From a virus, in IMG/VR virus record IMGVR_UViG_3300031963_000213, positions 1 through 51,629 of that record: a stretch of DNA of 51,629 nt, one strand, 5' to 3'. Of this stretch, positions 17,338 to 47,080 are shown piece after piece. The position numbers and the translations under genes are program-made. Under the pieces are notes generated by a model. The model searched no databases and had not been told where the DNA came from. It saw nothing but the letters and a program-made list of their open reading frames with translations. How positions within the stretch are numbered: position 1 is the first letter of the stretch; each line of letters starts with the position of its first letter.

Positions 17338-17931
17338 TTACTGCTGGATGGCGAGAACACCCTGCAGAAACTCGCGAGCCTGCTCGTCGCCCTCAAAGAA
17401 GTGACTGTGCGCTTCTGCGCCGAGCAGGTACAAGCCAGCAACTTCCGTGCCCAGCGCGGACTCAAGAAGTCGGCCGGGTTCACCGGCTAGATGCACGGCC
17501 CATCCGGCCATGCAATGCGTGGTTTCACATGAATGCCAGGCAGTCATCTTGAGCGCATTTGGCTTTAGCGCTGCTCGGGCAACCGCCTGCAATCGCTCCG
17601 AGGCATCGGCCGCAACAGGGAGGCCAACGGCATCCTCCAGGTAGGCACCCCTCAGGTCGGCATCCCTCAGGTCGGCACCGCTCAGGTCGGCATCCCTCAG
17701 GTCGGCATCCCTCAGGTCGGCACGCCTCAGGTCGGCACGCCTCAGGTCGGCACCGCTCAGGTAGGCACCCCTCAGGTCGGCACGCCTCAGGTCGGCACCG
17801 CTCAGGTCGGCATCCCTCAGGTCGGCATCCCTCAGGTCGGCATCCCTCAGAATTAGCCGCTGGCCAGCGGCGTCGCCACTCAGCCACTTCTGATGGCTCG
17901 CGAGTTGTTCGGGTGTTGGCAGTGATGTCAT
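17338..17931 (-). CDS. Pentapeptide-repeat protein
   Basis: 197 residues. Residues ~27-100 consist of about 15 pentapeptides of the A(D/Y)L(R/S)(D/G/R) type, which form a right-handed quadrilateral beta helix. The C-terminal domain ([20 protein letters not shown], then [12 protein letters not shown]) resembles a domain found beside such repeats in cyanobacteria and phages. Some pentapeptide proteins mimic DNA and inhibit gyrase; others have unknown roles. The function here is not shown. It is coded by tandem 15-base repeats (17640-17850). Confidence 0.8.
17640..17850 (-). repeat. Tandem 15-base repeats coding pentapeptides
   Basis: About 14 head-to-tail units of the type CTCAGGTCGGCAYCS (+ strand), differing mainly at the last few bases. 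They are in frame with the pentapeptide-repeat gene and prone to expansion or contraction. There are no spacers, so this is not a CRISPR array. Confidence 0.9.
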
Positions 17932-17970
17932 GGATGGATTGCACAGGTGAGTTCAGTGTTGCCAGCGACT

Positions 17971-18660
17971 TCAGGTGATAGCCCACGAAGTAGCCGCCGT
18001 GATCACGCCGGACCCAAGCGACACGCCATCAAGCACGAACGCCGTATCATCACCGCAATAAACAATGGTCGATCCATTGGATTGCGCGTAGCGATAGCTA
18101 GCACCGTGCGTAAGTTTCACCCTGTCCTCCGCAACAGAGAAGTCCATAATTCTCGCGTAATCATTCGGACCGCCACCGACATAGCACCCAACTACATCGA
18201 AAACATCATTTCCACGACCGCCCCAGAGCTTGTCGATTTCTCCGCTGCCGATCCCGCCAACCAGCGTGTCATTGCCCGCGCCGCCCTGGAGCAGATCGTT
18301 TCCGGCGCCGCCACGCAGCAGGTCGTCGTCAGCGCCTCCCCCGAGGCTGTCATTGCCTGCTCCGCCGATCAGGGTGTCCCGGCCTGCCAGGCCGCAGAGC
18401 AGGTCATCTCCCTGGCCTCCTACGAGGCTGTCGTTGCCATCGCCGCCGATCAGCGTGTCATTGCCCAGGCCGCCGAGCAGCGTGTCGTTGCCGGCGCCGC
18501 CGTCAAGGCTGTCGTTGCCAGCGCCACCATCAAGGCAGTCACTGCCGGCATCTCCAAGAACAGTGTCATTGCCACCGAGGCTTGAGATTGCGTCGCTGAC
18601 GCTTGTGCCAACAATGCTGTCGGCAAATTCGGTGATGGGAAAACGGGGAACCGAGGTCAT
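17971..18660 (-). CDS. RTX calcium-binding repeat protein
   Basis: 229 residues. Residues ~30-150 hold about a dozen nonapeptides of the GGxGxDxLx type (such as GGAGNDTLLGGLGND), which bind Ca2+ and form a parallel beta roll. The C-terminal ~65 residues (GRGNDVFDVVGCYVGGG, ARIMDFSVAEDRVKL, AFVLDGV) resemble the end of type I secreted RTX proteins, where an uncleaved secretion signal sits. Cyanobacteria have many such proteins; in a phage it looks like a host-derived cargo gene. It has its own predicted promoter and a CCAACCAAC motif 9 bases before the ATG. Confidence 0.8.
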   Translation of the reverse strand: MTSVPRFPITEFADSIVGTSVSDAISSLGGNDTVLGDAGSDCLDGGAGNDSLDGGAGNDTLLGGLGNDTLIGGDGNDSLVGGQGDDLLCGLAGRDTLIGGAGNDSLGGGADDDLLRGGAGNDLLQGGAGNDTLVGGIGSGEIDKLWGGRGNDVFDVVGCYVGGGPNDYARIMDFSVAEDRVKLTHGASYRYAQSNGSTIVYCGDDTAFVLDGVSLGSGVITAATSWAIT

Positions 18661-22838: not shown

Positions 22839-23276
22839 TCAGACAAGATCAGAGAGGTCAGGGGGCTGGTAGTTCGGCCCCTTCAGGATCTTGCCATCTT
22901 CCCGATAGATGGGCTTTCCGTTTGAGTCGAGCTTGCTCATGTTTGAACGGAAAACGCGACACATCGCTTCTTCAAGGTCGATTCCCAAGAAAGCTGCCAT
23001 CTGCTCGCATACAAAAGCAAGATCAGACAGCTCCTTAATAACGCACTCCTTGGCCTGGCGAACAGCGTTGATGTCGCTATCAGAGGATTCCCCACCCTCC
23101 GACAACTTCACCCACAGGTCAAGGGCTTCCTTGAACTCGTTGCCCTCTTCTTGAATCAAGCCAAGCTGCATCCTGAGAACCGACAGCGATTCGGGCGGGA
23201 TGCAAGCTACGCCGGCTTGAATTGTCTTTTGACCAAAAGCGCGCCGAAATTCAATAGCCTGTTGTGTACGATTCAT
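22839..23276 (-). CDS. mazG: MazG-like nucleotide pyrophosphohydrolase
   Basis: 145 residues of the all-alpha NTP pyrophosphohydrolase superfamily. LGLIQEEGNEFKEALD (~38) supplies the EExxE metal-binding helix. KECVIKELSDLAFVCEQMAA (~75) supplies the second (E..D) helix. The C-terminal part (SNMSKLDSNGKPIYREDGK, ILKGPNYQPPDL) is typical of phage members. These enzymes hydrolyse non-canonical or alarmone-type (d)NTPs; cyanophage MazG has been linked to control of host nucleotides. Substrate cannot be told from sequence. Confidence 0.8.
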   Translation of the reverse strand: MNRTQQAIEFRRAFGQKTIQAGVACIPPESLSVLRMQLGLIQEEGNEFKEALDLWVKLSEGGESSDSDINAVRQAKECVIKELSDLAFVCEQMAAFLGIDLEEAMCRVFRSNMSKLDSNGKPIYREDGKILKGPNYQPPDLSDLV

Positions 23277-23281
23277 GTTCG

Positions 23282-23503
23282 TCAGGCGAATCTTGCAGTA
23301 GTGATGCTGTTGCTGATGTGACGCCAGTGGTTGTCGAACGTATCAGCGAAGCGCACGCCAGTTCGCCACCACAGACGAATCACCGACCTGCGCTCACTCC
23401 TGGGCATCTTGCTCCAGCTTGCTGCAAGATAGGCAGCCTCAGCCCTTTGAAGATCCGAAAGGCTTGGTCGTGCAGCATTACTGCTTGCATCAGTTTCTGA
23501 CAT
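23282..23503 (-). CDS. Small hypothetical protein
   Basis: 73 residues: polar start (MSETDASSNAARPSLSDLQR), then a basic/aromatic helix region (SERRSVIRLWWRTGVRFADT). It starts only 9 bases after the abrB terminator, so it depends on read-through or on a promoter that I cannot see. Co-transcribed with mazG, six bases apart. Confidence 0.5.
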   Translation of the reverse strand: MSETDASSNAARPSLSDLQRAEAAYLAASWSKMPRSERRSVIRLWWRTGVRFADTFDNHWRHISNSITTARFA

Positions 23504-23511
23504 TTTCAGGT

Positions 23512-23539
23512 AAAAAAATGGCCCCGGTTTCCCGAGGCC
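23512..23539 (-). terminator. Rho-independent terminator after abrB-like gene
   Basis: On the leftward strand GGCCTCGG-GAAA-CCGGGGCC (8-base stem with one G-T pair and a GAAA loop) is followed by ATTTTTTT. It starts 21 bases after the stop of the AbrB-like gene. Confidence 0.85.
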
Positions 23540-23559
23540 GTTGACTCAGTGGAAGTGGA

Positions 23560-24132
23560 TCAGAGATCCAGATCGCTCTCGCCATCCAGGTCGTCGCTCA
23601 GGTCGGCTTCAACCTGATCAGAGGCTTCCTTGACGCCAGCGGTGATCACGATCTGACCGGGCGATGCTTCGATCTTGACGTAGGAATCAACGTCCTCGCC
23701 GAAGGGGAAGCCGGCGATCGTGGTGTGACGGCCGCCAACCACAATGTTGCCGGTCTTGCCGATCTTCACAACCGGGCTGCGGTTGGTGCGGCGATACGGA
23801 CGCGAGGGGGGAGCCAGCTTGATGCCGGTCTGAGCTTCAAGCGAAGCCTTCAGGAATTCGTTGAGGTCCGCCTGGGTAACACGGACTTCGACATCACCAG
23901 TGGCATTGTCGGTGATTTCGGTGTAGAAGCCGCAGGCCTTGGCGACAGCATCAATCTGGCTGCCTTCCATCTCGGCCATCTTCTGCTTGATTTCAGCAGA
24001 CGACAGCGGAGTGCCCTTGGTACGGGTGGTGGCCTTCTGGTTTTCGGCGGGAGCTTCGGACATTTGTTGGGTAGTGGAACTATCGGTGGTGGTTTCAGCC
24101 GACTCGGCGGCGGCTGCTTTTCGGCGGGGCAA
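23560..24132 (-). CDS. Cyanobacterial AbrB-like transcription regulator
   Basis: 190 residues. An N-terminal Ala/Thr/Glu-rich tail (1-40) is followed by LSSAEIKQKMAEMEGSQID, AKACGFYTEI (~65) and TQADLNEFLKASLEAQTGIK (~86). The segment VVKIGKTGNIVVGGRHTTI (~121-139) corresponds to the C-terminal swapped-hairpin region of cyAbrB proteins. The end is acidic (DLSDDLDGESDLDL). Cyanobacterial AbrB proteins regulate carbon/nitrogen balance and cell differentiation. It has its own promoter and terminator. It could override host expression or control phage genes; which is unknown. Confidence 0.8.
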   Translation of the reverse strand: MPRRKAAAAESAETTTDSSTTQQMSEAPAENQKATTRTKGTPLSSAEIKQKMAEMEGSQIDAVAKACGFYTEITDNATGDVEVRVTQADLNEFLKASLEAQTGIKLAPPSRPYRRTNRSPVVKIGKTGNIVVGGRHTTIAGFPFGEDVDSYVKIEASPGQIVITAGVKEASDQVEADLSDDLDGESDLDL

Positions 24133-24158
24133 CGTGAAAAGCCGTTGACGACCAAGAA

Positions 24159-24187
24159 ATCATACCTTGCAGGAGCGGAACGCGCAA
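24159..24187 (-). promoter_or_regulatory. Promoter of the abrB-like gene
   Basis: The leftward strand has -35 TTGCGC (24182-24187), a 17-base spacer and -10 TATGAT (24159-24164), giving a ~20-base leader. The same -35 hexamer occurs in early cassette 3. Confidence 0.65.
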
Positions 24188-24197
24188 GCCCAGGCGC

Positions 24198-24605
24198 TCA
24201 CCTTTTTTGAGGAGGCCACCACGGCAGCAGATACAGGTACGTCCGCTGCTGGTCTGTTGGAGCCGGCTGCCACCATGTCACAGCTCCCGGCAGGCGTGAA
24301 CAACGGTCGTCCACCAGAACGCCAGCCTTGACAGCTGCATCGAGCACGGCACCTGACAAATTGTCAACATCGCTGCGCCCGTGGCCATGAAACTCGATGC
24401 CGACCAGGGCATGATCCAGCGGCTCGCGCCCCTGCCATTGCTGCTGGAGGCTGGCCTGGGAGGCCGCCAGCCAGGCCCTGTACTTCGGTGAGGTGAACGA
24501 TCGGCCCTGCCCCTGCCGTGGCCGCTCCTTGGGCTGCAGGGGGCCATCCAGAGAGAGGGTGAGCCAGTCAGGCCCATTCGGGCCGGGCTGCAGCATCATC
24601 ATCAT
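24198..24605 (-). CDS. rusA: RusA-family Holliday junction resolvase
   Basis: 135 residues if the first of four consecutive ATG codons (24594-24605) is used. It shows the RusA layout: LSLDGPLQPKERPR near the start, KYRAWLAASQ, then GRSDVDNLSGAVLDAAVKAG (~77) and VLVDDRCSR (~97). The conserved aspartates (SDVDN and DD) bind the catalytic metal. It would resolve four-way junctions formed by the phage's annealing recombination and replication. It overlaps the upstream gene by 38 bases. Confidence 0.85.
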   Translation of the reverse strand: MMMMLQPGPNGPDWLTLSLDGPLQPKERPRQGQGRSFTSPKYRAWLAASQASLQQQWQGREPLDHALVGIEFHGHGRSDVDNLSGAVLDAAVKAGVLVDDRCSRLPGAVTWWQPAPTDQQRTYLYLLPWWPPQKR

Positions 24606-25326
24606 CAGCGCCTGAATCCCCTGCCCTGGCGGCACGCGCATTGGCGCAATGACTCAAAAGGTTCAACGCAAGAATCCTAGACTTAGCCGGACCGAAACGC
24701 TCAAACAAGATCTTGCCAGCTTCCTCAAGCTGCAAGTTAGTCGGATTCTTGAATAGCTTGATCGGCTTGAGAGCTTGCTTCTTTTCCGCATAACCCTCAG
24801 CGTAATAGCATTCCTGTATGTTTTTATACTTTCTTCCTGGGCCTACATCAGCAAGCAGTGACGGCTGCATCTGGTATAGATACTTAATAGTGCGATAGTC
24901 AATAATCTTATCGTACTTTCTTTTTCTTCTATCTTTCGCAACAGATGCAATCAAGCGCCTGAACTCAAAAAACTCTGGCGGAAAGTCGAATGACTTGTCT
25001 TCTTTCCTGAGCCAATCAATAAACTTATAGGCATACTTATTTTTTGATCTTTCTTTCAGTGCTGACTTTGTTACAGCAATGATAAATTGATTTAGATTCT
25101 TGACGCCAAGACCGTAGTAAACACTATGGATAAAGTCTTTAATGCCCTTAAGCTTGATTTCCTTGTTGCGAAGCGTTGTGTATCCATGATGAACATTGGC
25201 TTCAACGATTCGCAGCATTGCCGCAAAAAAAGGCTCCGAATCTTGACCGGCCATAACCGTGCCAAGGTGGAGCCTTGCATCTTCTACAAGCAGAGCACCG
25301 TAATACGGATCATTTCTGCTCAGCAT
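24568..25326 (-). CDS. Hypothetical basic protein
   Basis: 252 residues, Lys/Tyr-rich and helical in the body (LKGIKDFIHSVYYGLGVKNL, SVAKDRRKRKYDKIIDYRTI). The tail is Ala/Asp-rich (ARAARAGDSGADDDDAAA). Base composition is clearly more AT-rich than the RusA gene next to it, suggesting a different origin, until the GC-rich tail. It lies between ssb and rusA, so a replication or recombination role is possible. I do not recognise a family. Confidence 0.6.
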   Translation of the reverse strand: MLSRNDPYYGALLVEDARLHLGTVMAGQDSEPFFAAMLRIVEANVHHGYTTLRNKEIKLKGIKDFIHSVYYGLGVKNLNQFIIAVTKSALKERSKNKYAYKFIDWLRKEDKSFDFPPEFFEFRRLIASVAKDRRKRKYDKIIDYRTIKYLYQMQPSLLADVGPGRKYKNIQECYYAEGYAEKKQALKPIKLFKNPTNLQLEEAGKILFERFGPAKSRILALNLLSHCANARAARAGDSGADDDDAAARPEWA

Positions 25327-32090: not shown

Positions 32091-32810
32091 ATGGATCCAC
32101 GGTTCCGGGTTTCACTGATCACGCGAACGCCGGAGCCAAACCGGGCGATCTGGTGCGGAATGCACCAAGATTATTCGGAGGGATTTGTAGCAGGTGAGGA
32201 ATGGCCTGATGAACCAAGGGCTGGCGAAATCATCATCAAGCGCTTGCTAGCAGGAGAAAGAGGGCACTACGGACCACTGGAGCACGCTCAAATTGTCTTG
32301 AATGTTGGCTGGTTCCCGCATTCAGTGATGCAACAGGCGAGAACTCACAGAATCGGAGTCTCGTTTGATGTTCAGAGTATGCGTTATACGGGTGACAGAA
32401 TCTGCAAAGCAGCCAACGAAGAACTTGCCATTGAAGAAGTTTTTTACCTAAGGCCCGCTGGATACTATTCAGATAGAAATGGAAAAAAGTATCACTACAC
32501 AGAGAGCCGGAGAAACAAAGATCTGGCGCTCTGCAAAGAAGCCGCCAACAGGTATTACGAGTTAATTCTTGACGGATTTGCAGAAGAGCACGCACGCGGC
32601 ATTTTACCATTTGATTATCGCCAACATTTTGTAGTTAGTTTTACGCTCAGAGCTTTCTTGCACTTTTTGGATCTTCGCGCCAAGTTGGATGCACAGCTTG
32701 AGATTCGGCAACTTTGCGATCTGATGTGGCCACATCTTGAAAAATGGTCGCCAGAAATCGCAGCTTGGTATAAGGCCACCCGCTACGGCAAAGCGAGGCT
32801 TGCGCCATGA
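32091..32810 (+). CDS. thyX: FAD-dependent thymidylate synthase ThyX
   Basis: 239 residues. The ThyX signature is RTHRIGVSFDVQSMRY (~84-99), a cyanobacteria-like variant of RHRxxSxNxxSxRY. HYGPLEHAQIVL (~59) and DYRQHFVVSFTLRAFLHFLD (~180) are also conserved. It converts dUMP to dTMP with methylene-tetrahydrofolate and FADH2. With Dcd it forms a dCTP-to-dTMP route. It overlaps the sigma gene by ATGA. Confidence 0.93.
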   Translation: MDPRFRVSLITRTPEPNRAIWCGMHQDYSEGFVAGEEWPDEPRAGEIIIKRLLAGERGHYGPLEHAQIVLNVGWFPHSVMQQARTHRIGVSFDVQSMRYTGDRICKAANEELAIEEVFYLRPAGYYSDRNGKKYHYTESRRNKDLALCKEAANRYYELILDGFAEEHARGILPFDYRQHFVVSFTLRAFLHFLDLRAKLDAQLEIRQLCDLMWPHLEKWSPEIAAWYKATRYGKARLAP

Positions 32811-33745
32811 CATGCGAGGACTACTTGAAGGACATTGGCAGAGTGCCACTGTTGACAAGCGAAGAAGAGATCGTGCTTGGTAATAGAGTCCAAGCAATGA
32901 TCAGAATGCTTGAATCGCACGGGATTGGCTATCAGCTATCGGCGAGCAATATTGACGAGGCATTGCAGCAGCTCAACCAAGACGAAAAACGGCTTGTAAG
33001 ACTTGGAATCAAGGCAAGAAATCGCATGGTTTCAGCCAATATGAGACTCGTCGTTGCGATAGCCAAAAAGTACGTCAACAAGCAAGTCCACATGACAATG
33101 CAGGACTTGATTCAAGAAGGTGCTATCGGCCTTACGAGAGCTGCTGAGAAGTTTGATCCAGCAAGGGGTTATAAATTTTCGACGTATGCGTATCTATGGA
33201 TAAAGCAAGGAATGACAAGGGGGTGTGAGGCCCAAGAGGGCATCATCAAGCTCCCGGCTCACTTGCAGCGTCTGATACGCAGGGCCGGTGAAATGAGAAT
33301 TCGGCTTGCAGCGAAGCTCGGAAGAGAGCCGAGCTTCAAGGAGCTTTCCGATCAGATGGGAGAAGCTGATCACGAAAAGCTCAGAAGCATCATCTCGATG
33401 CACTTCCTCATGTCACCTGCGATCCTGTGGATTGACAGGTGGGTGGAGACAGGGGATCGGTCATTCTTCACGCTATCAGATCTGGCTGGTGACGGCTACG
33501 CAGAAGCCAAAAGCGAAGAGGAGGATACTAGTAAGCTGAACTTTATCATGCTTGCGATTCAAGCACTTGAGCCGATTGACAGGGAGCTTGTCACAAAGAG
33601 GCATGGAATTGGCTGCGAGCCAACCAATTTCAAGGAGTTATCCGAAGCAACGGGCCTGACAGTACAGGTGGCAAAGGAAAGGTATCAAAAGGCTACAGCA
33701 AAGATACGGTATATCGTTACAACTTTCACCGCGCCTGATGGCTGA
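32807..33745 (+). CDS. RpoD-type sigma factor
   Basis: 312 residues. Region 1.2 is DYLKDIGRVPLLTSEEEIVL (5-24), as in cyanobacterial group 2/3 sigmas. Region 2 (79-140) holds NMRLVVAIAKKYV, DLIQEGAIGL and FSTYAYLWIKQGMTRG. Region 3 is IKLPAHLQRLIRRAGEMRIR (147-166). Region 4 (~250-303) is divergent: TGLTVQVAKERYQKATAKIR replaces the usual TxERVRQIE..ALxKLR. It should direct host RNA polymerase to phage promoters, perhaps with altered -35 choice or an activator. Likely middle/late control. Confidence 0.9.
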   Translation: MTCEDYLKDIGRVPLLTSEEEIVLGNRVQAMIRMLESHGIGYQLSASNIDEALQQLNQDEKRLVRLGIKARNRMVSANMRLVVAIAKKYVNKQVHMTMQDLIQEGAIGLTRAAEKFDPARGYKFSTYAYLWIKQGMTRGCEAQEGIIKLPAHLQRLIRRAGEMRIRLAAKLGREPSFKELSDQMGEADHEKLRSIISMHFLMSPAILWIDRWVETGDRSFFTLSDLAGDGYAEAKSEEEDTSKLNFIMLAIQALEPIDRELVTKRHGIGCEPTNFKELSEATGLTVQVAKERYQKATAKIRYIVTTFTAPDG

Positions 33746-43140: not shown

Positions 43141-46100
43141 TCAAACCTTCACGACAACGATCATGCCATGAGCTTCGTGCTCGTTGATCAGCGAGCTTGC
43201 GGATGGCGATCCAGCAGGGGCGAACTGCTTGTAGAGATAGTAGATGTTGTGCAGCCCTGGCGGCATTGCTTTCGCCCACTGCGAACCAGAGGTTGTATCA
43301 ACGGTTCTGTTTTCTCCATAGAAAGCGTCGGCAGCTGGCGACGATTGACTGTTGACACCTGGCGCAACGTAAGCAATCACGTTGTTTACGTCAGTGGTTG
43401 GGTTGTTGTAAATATCAAGAAATGCCGTCACGAGCGTATTGGATGCCTGCACCCAGCTAATTCTTGGAGCAACGGGATAGACAGACGAAGGAGCGACGGA
43501 CCAGTTAAGGCTTGGGACGTTCCAAGAATTCCCAAAGAAGTAAACAGCCCGAGCGTCGTACAGGTTGTAGAAGTTGGCTAAGTAGATGCGGGGGAAGTTG
43601 GCACTCCCAGATCCCTGAATCGTTCCGCCAAGGTCAATCGTGCTAGTTCCGGCCGAGGTAGTGCGAAGCACGCCAACAAAGCGTCTGGACGGATCACCAT
43701 TTTTCACGATCACGCCGTCTCTGTCGCCCCTGGTTGGCATGACGGTATCACTTGGCCATGCCGTATAGTCAACTGCGAGTGTTGGACTTTGGGTGCTTCC
43801 AGCGTTATACAGGTAAATGTCGTAATTCCTGTTTGCAATGTTTGCTGGTGCAAAGCCGTTTCCAGCGTTGCCGGTCAGAAGGCTGAAGGCCTGCAGTCCA
43901 GAGAATCTGACAACCTGCCAACGCAGTGTTGCAGTGCTGTAAAGAGCAATCTCATTGCCGTTAAAAGGATGGACGTAGAGAGTTGTCGAATTCAGCTGGT
44001 TCTCCCCTGGCGTGCTTGAAGAAGATGAGAGGCTGAGTCGCAGGTTGACAACAGACTTGACCGCATCACCAAGAGTTTCAATTAGTGTTGCAGGGGTGAT
44101 GGCAAGATCATTACGCACAAACTCTTGAGCCTCAAGGCTGGTCGCAATCTCAATCGCACCCCTCTGAGAAGTGCTTGCGGCTGGAAGTTCTGGCAGGACG
44201 CCGCCAAATCCATTTACACCTCCCCAGTTGGGTGAACCACTGATCGTCGCATTGCCAAGATTCAGTCCGTTGTTGACGGTGAGTGTATTGACGGCAAGTT
44301 GATCAAAGAAAGTTGGGAATGCAATTTCGTCAATCGGAACATTGGAGTCGCCGATCGCCTCAAAGGAGATCTCATTGCCAGTGGCGAGATCCTGCAGGCC
44401 CTGCGGAGTTACAAGCAGCCCCTCTTCGTTGAAGCCACTTGCGTACACCCGACCACCATCTTGATTGGTGAAGTAATAGGTGAACTTGTTGACAGCGCTC
44501 AGTTCAAGTTGGTACTCGGGCAGTGCCTTTGTGTAATTCAGCGTGCCGGCCCATTCCCAAGCATGGCCGAACAGGCGAATGTTCGACGGGCGGCGGAACT
44601 CAACAGGCCAGTTGCTCCAGCTCGTTGCAGCACCAGATGGAGCGGCAATGCCATCAAGAGCTGCATTTGGATTGCGCTCACGGGTGGCGGCAACCTTCGG
44701 TAGCAAGATTGTGTGAGCGTTTGACGAGCTGAAGCCAAGGCTCATCAGGAACGAATGAATACCGAGATAGTCGGTGGCGGATCTGTACTGAGCCTGAATC
44801 AGCGAATCAGACGACCAAACAGTTGTGAGGTTATAGCCGCAATTGATCGTGCCATCGTTGGCATCGGTGTCGTTGTCAAAGATGACAGCAGGCTGACTGT
44901 TCTTCCAGTAATCCTCAGGGTTGTAGAGGGTGTCCATGTGGACATAGGCCTGTTCCCACTTTTCGAGAGAGAATGAGGTATCGGTGTTCTGAATCTTGCA
45001 GCTCCACTTCTTGCCCTGGTAGGAAACGCAGTCGCCGGGACGATACAGCTGTCCAGAGAGCCAGTTGCGAAGCGGATTGCTACGACGAAGCTCAACGGAC
45101 GCTGAACGAGTCACGCCATTCTGTTCGGGAGCAACAGAGTTGCCGATAGCAACAGTGAGAATTGCGCTATCTGGAATGTTGCCAACGATACCACTGCTAC
45201 CAGGGCTGGTCTGCAGGATGTAGTCACGAACTGGAGTCCGCGACAGGACATTGGTATTGTTGACGCGCAGCGAATAGCGGCGTTCGTCAATCGAGCGCGT
45301 ATCTTGCAGGCGGCGAACGTAGATCCTTGCGCCAGCCAGATCGGGCCAGCTCTGGCCAGTGCTCAGGCCTTGCGAGTTCAGAATCGCATCGCCAGGCTTG
45401 ATGCCGTTCTGATCTTGAAAGACAGCGGTAACAGTGATGACATCGGGCTGCGCCGGATTCCATGCAGTTCCGGTAAGACGAGCGCGATAGTCAAGTCCTC
45501 TTGCATTTTCAATCCAGATGAAGGAGTTGCCCTTCAGCGAGTATCCGTCACGCGCAAGTGATGCAGGGGTTCCTGGGCTGGAAATGCTGTCAGTCAGTGG
45601 AACTGTCAGCGTGATTGAGGTTGCGTTGTTTGCGACACCTTCGTCAACGACGCCAAGATAGATCTTGCGAACGTTGTTGCGCTTTTCTGTCAGATCGGTT
45701 GCAACACGGATTGATCCGACGTTCCAGTTCGAGTCACTGACAAATGCGGCATTCTTATAGCCCTCGGCGATCGCAGCGCATCCGCCGAAGTTGCTGTTGC
45801 TATTTGTGATAGTGATTTCACCACCGGAATCAACCCAGTGGTGGACACCTTGGCCAATCGCAAAAACGGAAACCTCTTGGATGATCGCATCGTTGATGCA
45901 GCGAATATGGAAGCTCCGGCGTGCCGGATTCATCCGCACATCATCGGGATCACTGTTGATCAGGTCGTTGTAGCCAGTGAAGTAGTTGCCCCACTGCGGA
46001 CTCTGATTCGATGCGTATTTCTGCCAGCAGGACAGGTCGCGCTGCAGGCTGACGCCAGTGAACTGCGCCGTCACCATCGACTTAAAGCCGGAAGGCTTGG

Positions 46101-46347
46101 AGCCGTCAGCAAAAATGCCGCAGATACCGTAGTTGCTTCGGATTGAGCAGTTGAAGATGTACGGAGAAGCGGAGAGAGTCGTATCAGTGTTGATTGTCTG
46201 AGCGCCAGACGCTGGCCTGGGGCCGACAATTTCGTATTCGGCCGTGCGCGTTACGGCAAGGCTGTTGTCAAGATTGCCGGTATTGTTGACGCCACCGAAT
46301 GCCAACGATTTTGGCATAGAATTCATCAAGCTCAGCCTTACTTGCAA
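43141..46347 (-). CDS. Giant structural protein, 3' part after frameshift
   Basis: 1068 codons. It continues, in the +1 frame, the protein begun at 46268-47080. From AFGGVNNTGNLDNSLAVTRT the sequence follows cyanophage structural proteins (ASPYIFNCSIRSNYGICGIF, SMVTAQFTGVSLQRDLSCWQ). Later parts are beta-rich, with SQRGAIEIATSLEAQEFVRN (fibre-type) and a C-terminal ending HEAHGMIVVVKV. Without the shift the whole would be ~1330 residues. Its own start codon is not convincing, so it needs the upstream part or internal initiation. Confidence 0.8.
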   Translation of the reverse strand: MQVRLSLMNSMPKSLAFGGVNNTGNLDNSLAVTRTAEYEIVGPRPASGAQTINTDTTLSASPYIFNCSIRSNYGICGIFADGSKPSGFKSMVTAQFTGVSLQRDLSCWQKYASNQSPQWGNYFTGYNDLINSDPDDVRMNPARRSFHIRCINDAIIQEVSVFAIGQGVHHWVDSGGEITITNSNSNFGGCAAIAEGYKNAAFVSDSNWNVGSIRVATDLTEKRNNVRKIYLGVVDEGVANNATSITLTVPLTDSISSPGTPASLARDGYSLKGNSFIWIENARGLDYRARLTGTAWNPAQPDVITVTAVFQDQNGIKPGDAILNSQGLSTGQSWPDLAGARIYVRRLQDTRSIDERRYSLRVNNTNVLSRTPVRDYILQTSPGSSGIVGNIPDSAILTVAIGNSVAPEQNGVTRSASVELRRSNPLRNWLSGQLYRPGDCVSYQGKKWSCKIQNTDTSFSLEKWEQAYVHMDTLYNPEDYWKNSQPAVIFDNDTDANDGTINCGYNLTTVWSSDSLIQAQYRSATDYLGIHSFLMSLGFSSSNAHTILLPKVAATRERNPNAALDGIAAPSGAATSWSNWPVEFRRPSNIRLFGHAWEWAGTLNYTKALPEYQLELSAVNKFTYYFTNQDGGRVYASGFNEEGLLVTPQGLQDLATGNEISFEAIGDSNVPIDEIAFPTFFDQLAVNTLTVNNGLNLGNATISGSPNWGGVNGFGGVLPELPAASTSQRGAIEIATSLEAQEFVRNDLAITPATLIETLGDAVKSVVNLRLSLSSSSSTPGENQLNSTTLYVHPFNGNEIALYSTATLRWQVVRFSGLQAFSLLTGNAGNGFAPANIANRNYDIYLYNAGSTQSPTLAVDYTAWPSDTVMPTRGDRDGVIVKNGDPSRRFVGVLRTTSAGTSTIDLGGTIQGSGSANFPRIYLANFYNLYDARAVYFFGNSWNVPSLNWSVAPSSVYPVAPRISWVQASNTLVTAFLDIYNNPTTDVNNVIAYVAPGVNSQSSPAADAFYGENRTVDTTSGSQWAKAMPPGLHNIYYLYKQFAPAGSPSASSLINEHEAHGMIVVVKV

Positions 46348-47080
46348 ACTGAAAGCAGTCCAGTAGATGGTGCGAGGATGTGCTGCCGACTTGATCCATG
46401 AAGGTCATGCCGAAGTAGTATCCAGCGCCAGTCACCTTGAAGATGGCTCGGCGGTTGCTGCAGTCGGATGCCTCGTCAGCAGGCGCCGGAACCGAGCCAG
46501 GCCGAACGATCGTCTTGCGGAGGTCGATGTTGCACAGGCTCGCGCCACGGACCAGCAGGATGCCCCCGGTGCCGGAGGGGTTGAAAGCCTCCAGCTCCGC
46601 ATCCGTGGGATCCTTGCCGTTCTCCCACTCGCTCACGGACGCAGCCCCGGCGCCATTCAGGGCGTAGGAGACGCCAGGGGACAGGAAAATGCTGACGAGA
46701 TCAGTATTTGCAAGAGGATTTTCGTAGTATGACTTGGCGGTGATGATACCGGCTTCAATAACAGCGCGGTTGATTGTCTTGAAGGGCCTTGCCGGTGTGT
46801 AACCGCATTCCAGGCGCTGAAGTTCAATGCGCTCAGTCGCTGATCCGCTTGTTGAGTAACTTCCGCTTACGAATCTATCACTGCCGATATATGGATTGAC
46901 GTACAGGACATAGGGTGCGGACAGCGGATCACTGATGACAGCGCCAGAGCCAATTTCAGCGCCGCCGCTCAGCTGGCGAACAGCATCGGTGATCGCTGCA
47001 ACCTGAGCGCGAACAGTGCCTTGCGAGCTGTTGATGTTGTCGAAAGAGCCGACCTGGCCACTGCGGACAATCTTGGTCAC
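46268..47080 (-). CDS. Giant structural protein, 5' part
   Basis: 270 codons from ATG 47080 (MTKIVRSGQVGSFDNINSSQ). It includes LYVNPYIGSDRFVSGSYSTS, PFKTINRAVIEAGIITAKSY and SSHHLLDCFQFASKAELDEF, as in large cyanophage virion proteins. The last ~10 residues (VGIRWRQQYRQS) are the out-of-frame end. The +1 frame then gives AFGGVNNTG. Removing one A from the AAAA run near 46324 would read FYAKSLAFGG and restore a single gene. Confidence 0.8.
   Translation of the reverse strand: MTKIVRSGQVGSFDNINSSQGTVRAQVAAITDAVRQLSGGAEIGSGAVISDPLSAPYVLYVNPYIGSDRFVSGSYSTSGSATERIELQRLECGYTPARPFKTINRAVIEAGIITAKSYYENPLANTDLVSIFLSPGVSYALNGAGAASVSEWENGKDPTDAELEAFNPSGTGGILLVRGASLCNIDLRKTIVRPGSVPAPADEASDCSNRRAIFKVTGAGYYFGMTFMDQVGSTSSHHLLDCFQFASKAELDEFYAKIVGIRWRQQYRQS

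Follow-up and report, generated by a model that had tools for sequence, protein, structure and literature searches.

The window analysed here, the whole 51,629-nucleotide stretch of the IMG/VR virus record IMGVR_UViG_3300031963_000213, carries on its minus strand a gene for a cyAbrB-family protein (23560-24132; 190 codons plus stop), which runs from a TTG start codon at 24132 to a TGA stop codon ending at 23560. The TTG start is backed by conserved first residues among the orthologs, one of which starts with GTG, and a clear Shine-Dalgarno sequence is missing at the TTG/GTG start in most family members. The encoded protein consists of a linker (residues ~1-40), an N-terminal domain (~40-109), a putative AbrB-like C-terminal half (~110-169) and an acidic tail (170-190) ending in DLDL. 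Within the linker, an internal ATG (24061-24063, minus strand; Met24, MSEA) is conserved and resembles the start of host cyAbrB proteins (MTE...). Of the 21 distinct family members, 19 possess one linker Met and the remaining members two, with S, T or P as the most frequent next residue. In L162-L188 the Met is kept at this place, near the host cyAbrB start position, although the linker is otherwise variable. The internal ATG is thus a possible second translation start.

Upstream of the gene, a promoter sequence (24159-24187, minus strand) is found with a TTGCGC box at 24187-24182, a 17-nt spacer and a TATGAT box at 24164-24159. It is followed by a short 5' leader (24133-24158, minus strand) of the GGTCGTCAACG type, which is well conserved in nearer relatives and shows no obvious Shine-Dalgarno sequence. 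Past the stop codon lies an intrinsic terminator (23512-23539, minus strand) of the form GGCCTCGG-GAAA-CCGGGGCC plus T-run, whose stem (23539-23520) with GAAA loop precedes seven T's (-17.7 kcal/mol, z = -2.0). The upstream neighbour, a gene for a RusA-like resolvase (24198-24641, minus strand), is separated from the cyAbrB-family gene by 65 bp. On the downstream side, an ORF of 73 amino acids (23282-23503, minus strand) sits at a distance of 56 bp between the terminator and a gene for a MazG-like pyrophosphohydrolase (22839-23276, minus strand); the former is confined to L003 and L006, the nearest relatives, and the latter is present in nearly all relatives.

Scanning viral sequences with a mixed phage-plus-host alignment yielded 27 loci which, minus near-copies, encode 21 distinct proteins with identities down to 34%. 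A genome scan using a narrow phage alignment returned nothing, and cyAbrB proper was not found in viral contigs with an approximate host-like query and narrow patterns. Taken alone, the promoter motif is unremarkable, as the window contains 11 sites with at most one mismatch compared to 8.6 expected. Its position is conserved in all 27 related loci: TTGC(G/A/T)N, 17 or 18 nt and TANNNT start 53-61 nt before the start of the coding match, and a slightly looser pattern falls at that place in only 0.7% of shuffled upstream regions. Likewise, a GC-rich stem-loop and a subsequent T-run are found within ~90 nt past the stop codon in 27/27 loci, the stem sequences differing among loci with pairing kept. 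The 27 loci are related and do not represent 27 independent events; given protein identities down to 34%, inherited chance is unlikely to account for this conservation. Since both elements are kept at every locus, we regard the insulated unit proposed in an earlier note on this DNA, together with its own TTGCGC-N17-TATGAT promoter and GAAA-loop terminator, as confirmed. Such a monocistronic unit with a sigma-70-like promoter would be transcribed apart from the surrounding replication and recombination genes.

Profile searches with the window protein gave no Pfam match (none to PF14250 even at E 10), no NCBIfam match and nothing significant in PHROGs, and direct HMM and BLAST searches against the PDB and phage records gave no significant match. 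A match to a PHROG 'virion structural protein' (E 0.018) was rejected, as it concerns one family member only and spans its low-complexity N-terminus. We therefore turned to host sequences. 80 host cyAbrBs were gathered from a genome collection with an approximate query and 52 more from genomes found through PF14250, including small picocyanobacterium-like ones. The HMM of these 132 proteins matches residues 37-147 of the window protein with 35 bits (E 6e-13 for one sequence). Alignment of the phage with the host profile by hhalign results in a score of 77 and a probability of 97.7 over 102-113 columns, whereas 100 column-shuffled versions average 12.5 (sd 2.7) and reach 21.8 at most, and a reversed version scores 13.6. 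According to both methods the homology spans the whole two-part cyAbrB domain, and the phage and host sequences align collinearly, with the putative AbrB-like part in the C-terminal half. Moreover, 16 of the 21 distinct family members match PF14250, a model which covers only 70 positions, at E <= 0.1 (best 2.6e-7). With a host-profile score far above the shuffled maximum and relatives that match PF14250, the assignment of the window protein as cyAbrB homologue is secure at the sequence level. The AbrB likeness that had been noticed earlier is thereby borne out. The Pfam search proposed as its check fails for the window protein itself, where it is a false negative, and succeeds for the relatives as well as with the broader host profile.

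In the AlphaFold2 monomer model of the phage protein, residues 35-110, comprising a strand, two helices, a hairpin and a further helix, are well modelled; confidence is low for the C-terminal half, as expected if a swapped-hairpin dimer is modelled as a monomer. A model of host cyAbrB shows the secondary-structure elements in the same order. Structure searches with the host C-terminal half gave AbrB-superfamily proteins as all of the best 17 matches, with a best E of 0.03 and probabilities up to 1.00; these include B. subtilis AbrB and SpoVT, MazE and archaeal 'histone-like' proteins. With the phage model, AbrB ranks third and fourth at a non-significant E of ~1.1. The swapped-hairpin fold anticipated in the earlier note is thus not recovered in the phage monomer model, the matching host half alone resembling AbrB-superfamily structures. 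Via this homology, the C-terminal half of the phage protein is expected to adopt an AbrB fold. It would form an AbrB-type swapped-hairpin dimer and bind DNA; in host cyAbrBs the DNA-binding domain is the C-terminal one (PMC4284466). The N-terminal alpha/beta domain would probably provide assembly contacts, and both domains would be flanked by a flexible linker starting with PRRK and by an acidic tail whose tip is conserved.

Another IMG/VR contig (86 kb) is practically identical to window positions 10157-51629 and extends the sequence by ~45 kb, in which genes for tail, head, portal and terminase lie. Two overlapping ORFs of the window (43141-47080) correspond to one ORF of 1313 amino acids in this contig (L155:12985-16926), with a length difference of 2 bases; this split probably stems from misassembly or from a frameshift that arose recently in this tail-region gene. 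Judged by eye, the terminase large subunit (L157:8167-10047) contains an apparent intein-like insertion (CVAGETLI... to ...HNSGKT), which adjoins the ATP-binding motif, a TnpB/IS200-IS605 OrfB-like gene of 402 amino acids (L156:6047-7255) is located inside this phage's structural module, and the window encodes a pentapeptide-repeat-like protein beside a GGxGxD (RTX-like) repeat protein (17338-18660). A tyrosine integrase (PF00589), which would be expected beside a lysogeny regulator of a temperate phage, is absent from four contigs, all of them possibly incomplete.

Most loci whose contig spans the region share the gene order g24568 - (RusA) - cyAbrB - MazG, RusA being undetected by sequence in some of the related loci. 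A gene for a phage group-2-like sigma factor (32807-33745, plus strand) is present in 13 of the 14 family contigs searched; a related contig, G155, has two such genes. The capsid protein shows 72-84% identity in four relatives. As the neighbours and the sigma factor recur among relatives, the gene content places the cyAbrB-type gene among the core genes of a single uncultured cyanophage clade. None of the 50,697 phage records searched represents a cultured phage bearing the family gene, and a cyAbrB-type protein is recorded there for just one phage, an uncultured podophage. In separate Krakvirus-type podophage contigs (L089:20004-20360 and L143-L153), a short cyAbrB-like gene follows a tail gene. 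Since the family is missing from PHROGs and is represented in the searched phage records by this podophage alone, annotation would label such genes 'hypothetical'.

The earlier note had regarded the protein as a phage copy of the host regulator. In a tree of 62 sequences, a long branch (98/100) unites the sampled host cyAbrBs to the exclusion of every phage sequence, which does not support this view and rules out recent capture from the sampled host clade. The best explanation of the tree is that phage cyAbrB represents an anciently diverged, phage-specific member of the cyAbrB family. What was observed at the locus is confirmed and its interpretation is supported in part, namely in that the phage encodes a cyAbrB-family protein within an insulated unit. 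With respect to the host, the cyAbrB family is described as cyanobacteria-specific (PMC4284466). The sigma factor has cyanobacterial and cyanophage relatives, its best full-length phage matches including Synechococcus phages S-CBS3 and KBS-S-2A, and the best portal matches are Prochlorococcus phages (28%). The capsid gene by itself gives no pointer to cyanophages. Taken together, the cyanobacteria-specific family and the sigma factor and portal matches point to a cyanobacterial host.

Host cyAbrBs regulate carbon and nitrogen genes (PMC4284466, PMC13421787), and the phage protein could accordingly, as suggested in the earlier note, redirect host carbon/nitrogen metabolism at the host cyAbrB targets. 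The long, well-supported branch between the phage lineage and all sampled host cyAbrBs speaks against this. Furthermore, Cys67 of the ACGFY motif aligns with the host CGYY cysteine (C34 of Sll0822), which reportedly tunes cyAbrB2 by glutathionylation; it is kept in nearer relatives and lost in the deepest phage branches (L179-L188). We thus consider metabolic redirection very doubtful.

Codon usage provides a hint at the expression level. The cyAbrB-family gene shows an ENC of 36.9, compared to 47.7 ± 3.8 for simulated genes with its own amino acids and matched GC3, of which 2 out of 2000 were as low. Among 64 phage genes compared, it is surpassed in codon bias by the major capsid gene alone, whose codon choice is in turn approached most closely by the cyAbrB-family gene. 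In 19 of 21 loci, which are related to each other, the gene has the lowest ENC among the compared neighbours (p = 2e-6), with means across loci of 41.0 for the cyAbrB-type gene and 53.4 for the neighbours. Capsid-like codon bias together with a private promoter and terminator points to high expression, so that the protein is probably made in quantity. This expression signature and the core-gene status fit a nucleoid-type role at least as well as carbon/nitrogen control. A DNA-associated virion protein, packaged with the genome in capsid-like amounts, would share the codon usage nearest to that of the capsid gene; as the gene sits among replication and recombination genes outside the structural module, and no significant match to virion families was obtained, this appears hardly credible.

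Alternatively, the protein might be a sequence-specific regulator that acts on a small number of phage promoters, its own among them, for example in an early-to-late switch and perhaps together with the phage sigma factor. The dedicated promoter with its conserved position, the conserved leader and the sigma factor in nearly all contigs searched are in line with this idea, as is the action of Synechocystis cyAbrB2 on SigE-dependent promoters (PMC11368403). The capsid-like codon bias, however, exceeds the need of a few-site regulator, and a shared phage regulon on the same promoter motif had to be rejected, the motif occurring only twice in the 86-kb contig, which is no more than chance. We therefore assign a low, albeit not negligible, probability to specific regulation.

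The termini and the charge distribution set the phage proteins apart from their host relatives. Nearly all members start with PRRK (exceptions are PSRK, PRQK, PRLK and two starts cut by the local match), and the C-terminus is an acidic stretch with a conserved tip, mostly LDL (DLDL, ELDL; also QMDL), except for three members ending in F, D and N, respectively. Both the N-terminal extension and the acidic tail noticed earlier are thus present; the tail is not unusual, though, as 95% of 129 host cyAbrB tails are net negative as well. The C-terminal half carries a charge of +5.6 in the phage proteins versus +2.3 in the hosts, the N-terminal half -3.9 versus +2.6, and the pI of the whole protein is 4.4-5.7 (about 4.7) in the family versus a host mean of 7.9. 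As far as sequence can tell, the phage-specific traits are the PRRK N-terminus, the conserved C-terminal tip and a more basic half that is predicted to bind DNA. Between distinct orthologs, dN/dS is 0.05-0.23 in the core, some of these estimates being obtained at high dS, and 0.46-0.97 in the linker, by which purifying selection appears clear in the former and weak in the latter.

An N-terminal domain that is conserved yet oppositely charged, in an acidic protein of predicted high expression, could be that of an antagonist which, by mixing with the host cyAbrB or through competition at its sites, lifts the silencing of incoming DNA, an idea also put forward for phage-borne silencer homologues (PMC8612146). 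Unlike in a truncated antagonist, the predicted DNA-binding half is kept and is more basic than that of the hosts, and ~30% identity to the hosts makes mixed oligomers less sure. Antagonism therefore seems quite unlikely to us.

Analogy to cyAbrB2 and actinophage Lsr2, together with the expression signature and the charge layout, makes a nucleoid-associated-type role the best reading. Synechocystis cyAbrB2 binds AT-rich DNA broadly, represses transcription and excludes sigma factors, and has been proposed as a nucleoid-associated protein (PMC11368403). Similarly, an abundant phage protein might sit on phage and/or host DNA via its AbrB fold, organise this DNA and bias its transcription, in line with proposals for host cyAbrB2 and actinophage Lsr2; we hold this view with about even confidence. 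Computation from the sequence shows the homology, the structure of the unit, its conservation, the codon bias and the charge pattern, whereas DNA binding, dimerisation, abundance and the nucleoid role itself are what we infer for the phage protein. The acidic whole protein and negative N-terminal half, which are odd in a general DNA coat, the low-confidence model of the C-terminal half with non-significant AbrB structure matches, and the TTG/GTG start, mostly without a clear Shine-Dalgarno sequence, argue against a nucleoid-type role. A more far-reaching version, in which a chromatin protein of near-capsid level coats or compacts phage (or host) DNA during infection, docks partners by its conserved acidic C-terminal tip and has a second form, devoid of most of the linker, made from the internal ATG, is in our opinion unlikely.

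In conclusion, an uncultured cyanophage group possesses its own distant cyAbrB, by which these phages may coat or re-programme the DNA of the infected cell. We found no paper on cyAbrB in phages in an open-access library, and host cyAbrBs have only recently been proposed as cyanobacterial nucleoid-associated proteins; the phage protein would offer a handle on how cyanophages meet or exploit host chromatin. With the host proteins cyAbrB1 and cyAbrB2 (PF14250; Sll0359 and Sll0822 of Synechocystis) it shares the two-part architecture with a predicted AbrB-like part at the C-terminus, the order of secondary-structure elements and the acidic tail. It differs from them by an identity of only ~30%, a PRRK-led linker preceding the ancestral start, the conserved C-terminal tip, a more basic C-terminal and an acidic N-terminal half, and a lower pI. 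The AbrB family regulator of the uncultured podophage MedDCM-OCT-S39-C11 (Krakvirus, BAQ94494.1) is likewise a phage-borne cyAbrB-type protein, but with 118 amino acids lacks linker and tail, belongs to a different phage type and groups only weakly with part of the present family in the tree. Archaeal chromosomal proteins such as Sso7c4 (PDB 5itj/5itm, 'histone-like protein') also employ an AbrB-superfamily fold, in their case in a short, single-domain protein. Finally, the Lsr2-type proteins of actinophages are phage homologues of a host nucleoid-associated silencer, too, and have been proposed to maintain lysogeny as well as to interfere with the silencing exerted by the host (PMC8612146), although protein family and hosts are unrelated to those of phage cyAbrB. 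If the nucleoid-type role holds true, a phage lineage whose core genes include a cyAbrB of old origin, with a promoter of its own and probably high abundance, would represent in cyanobacteria the counterpart of the Lsr2 carried by actinophages.
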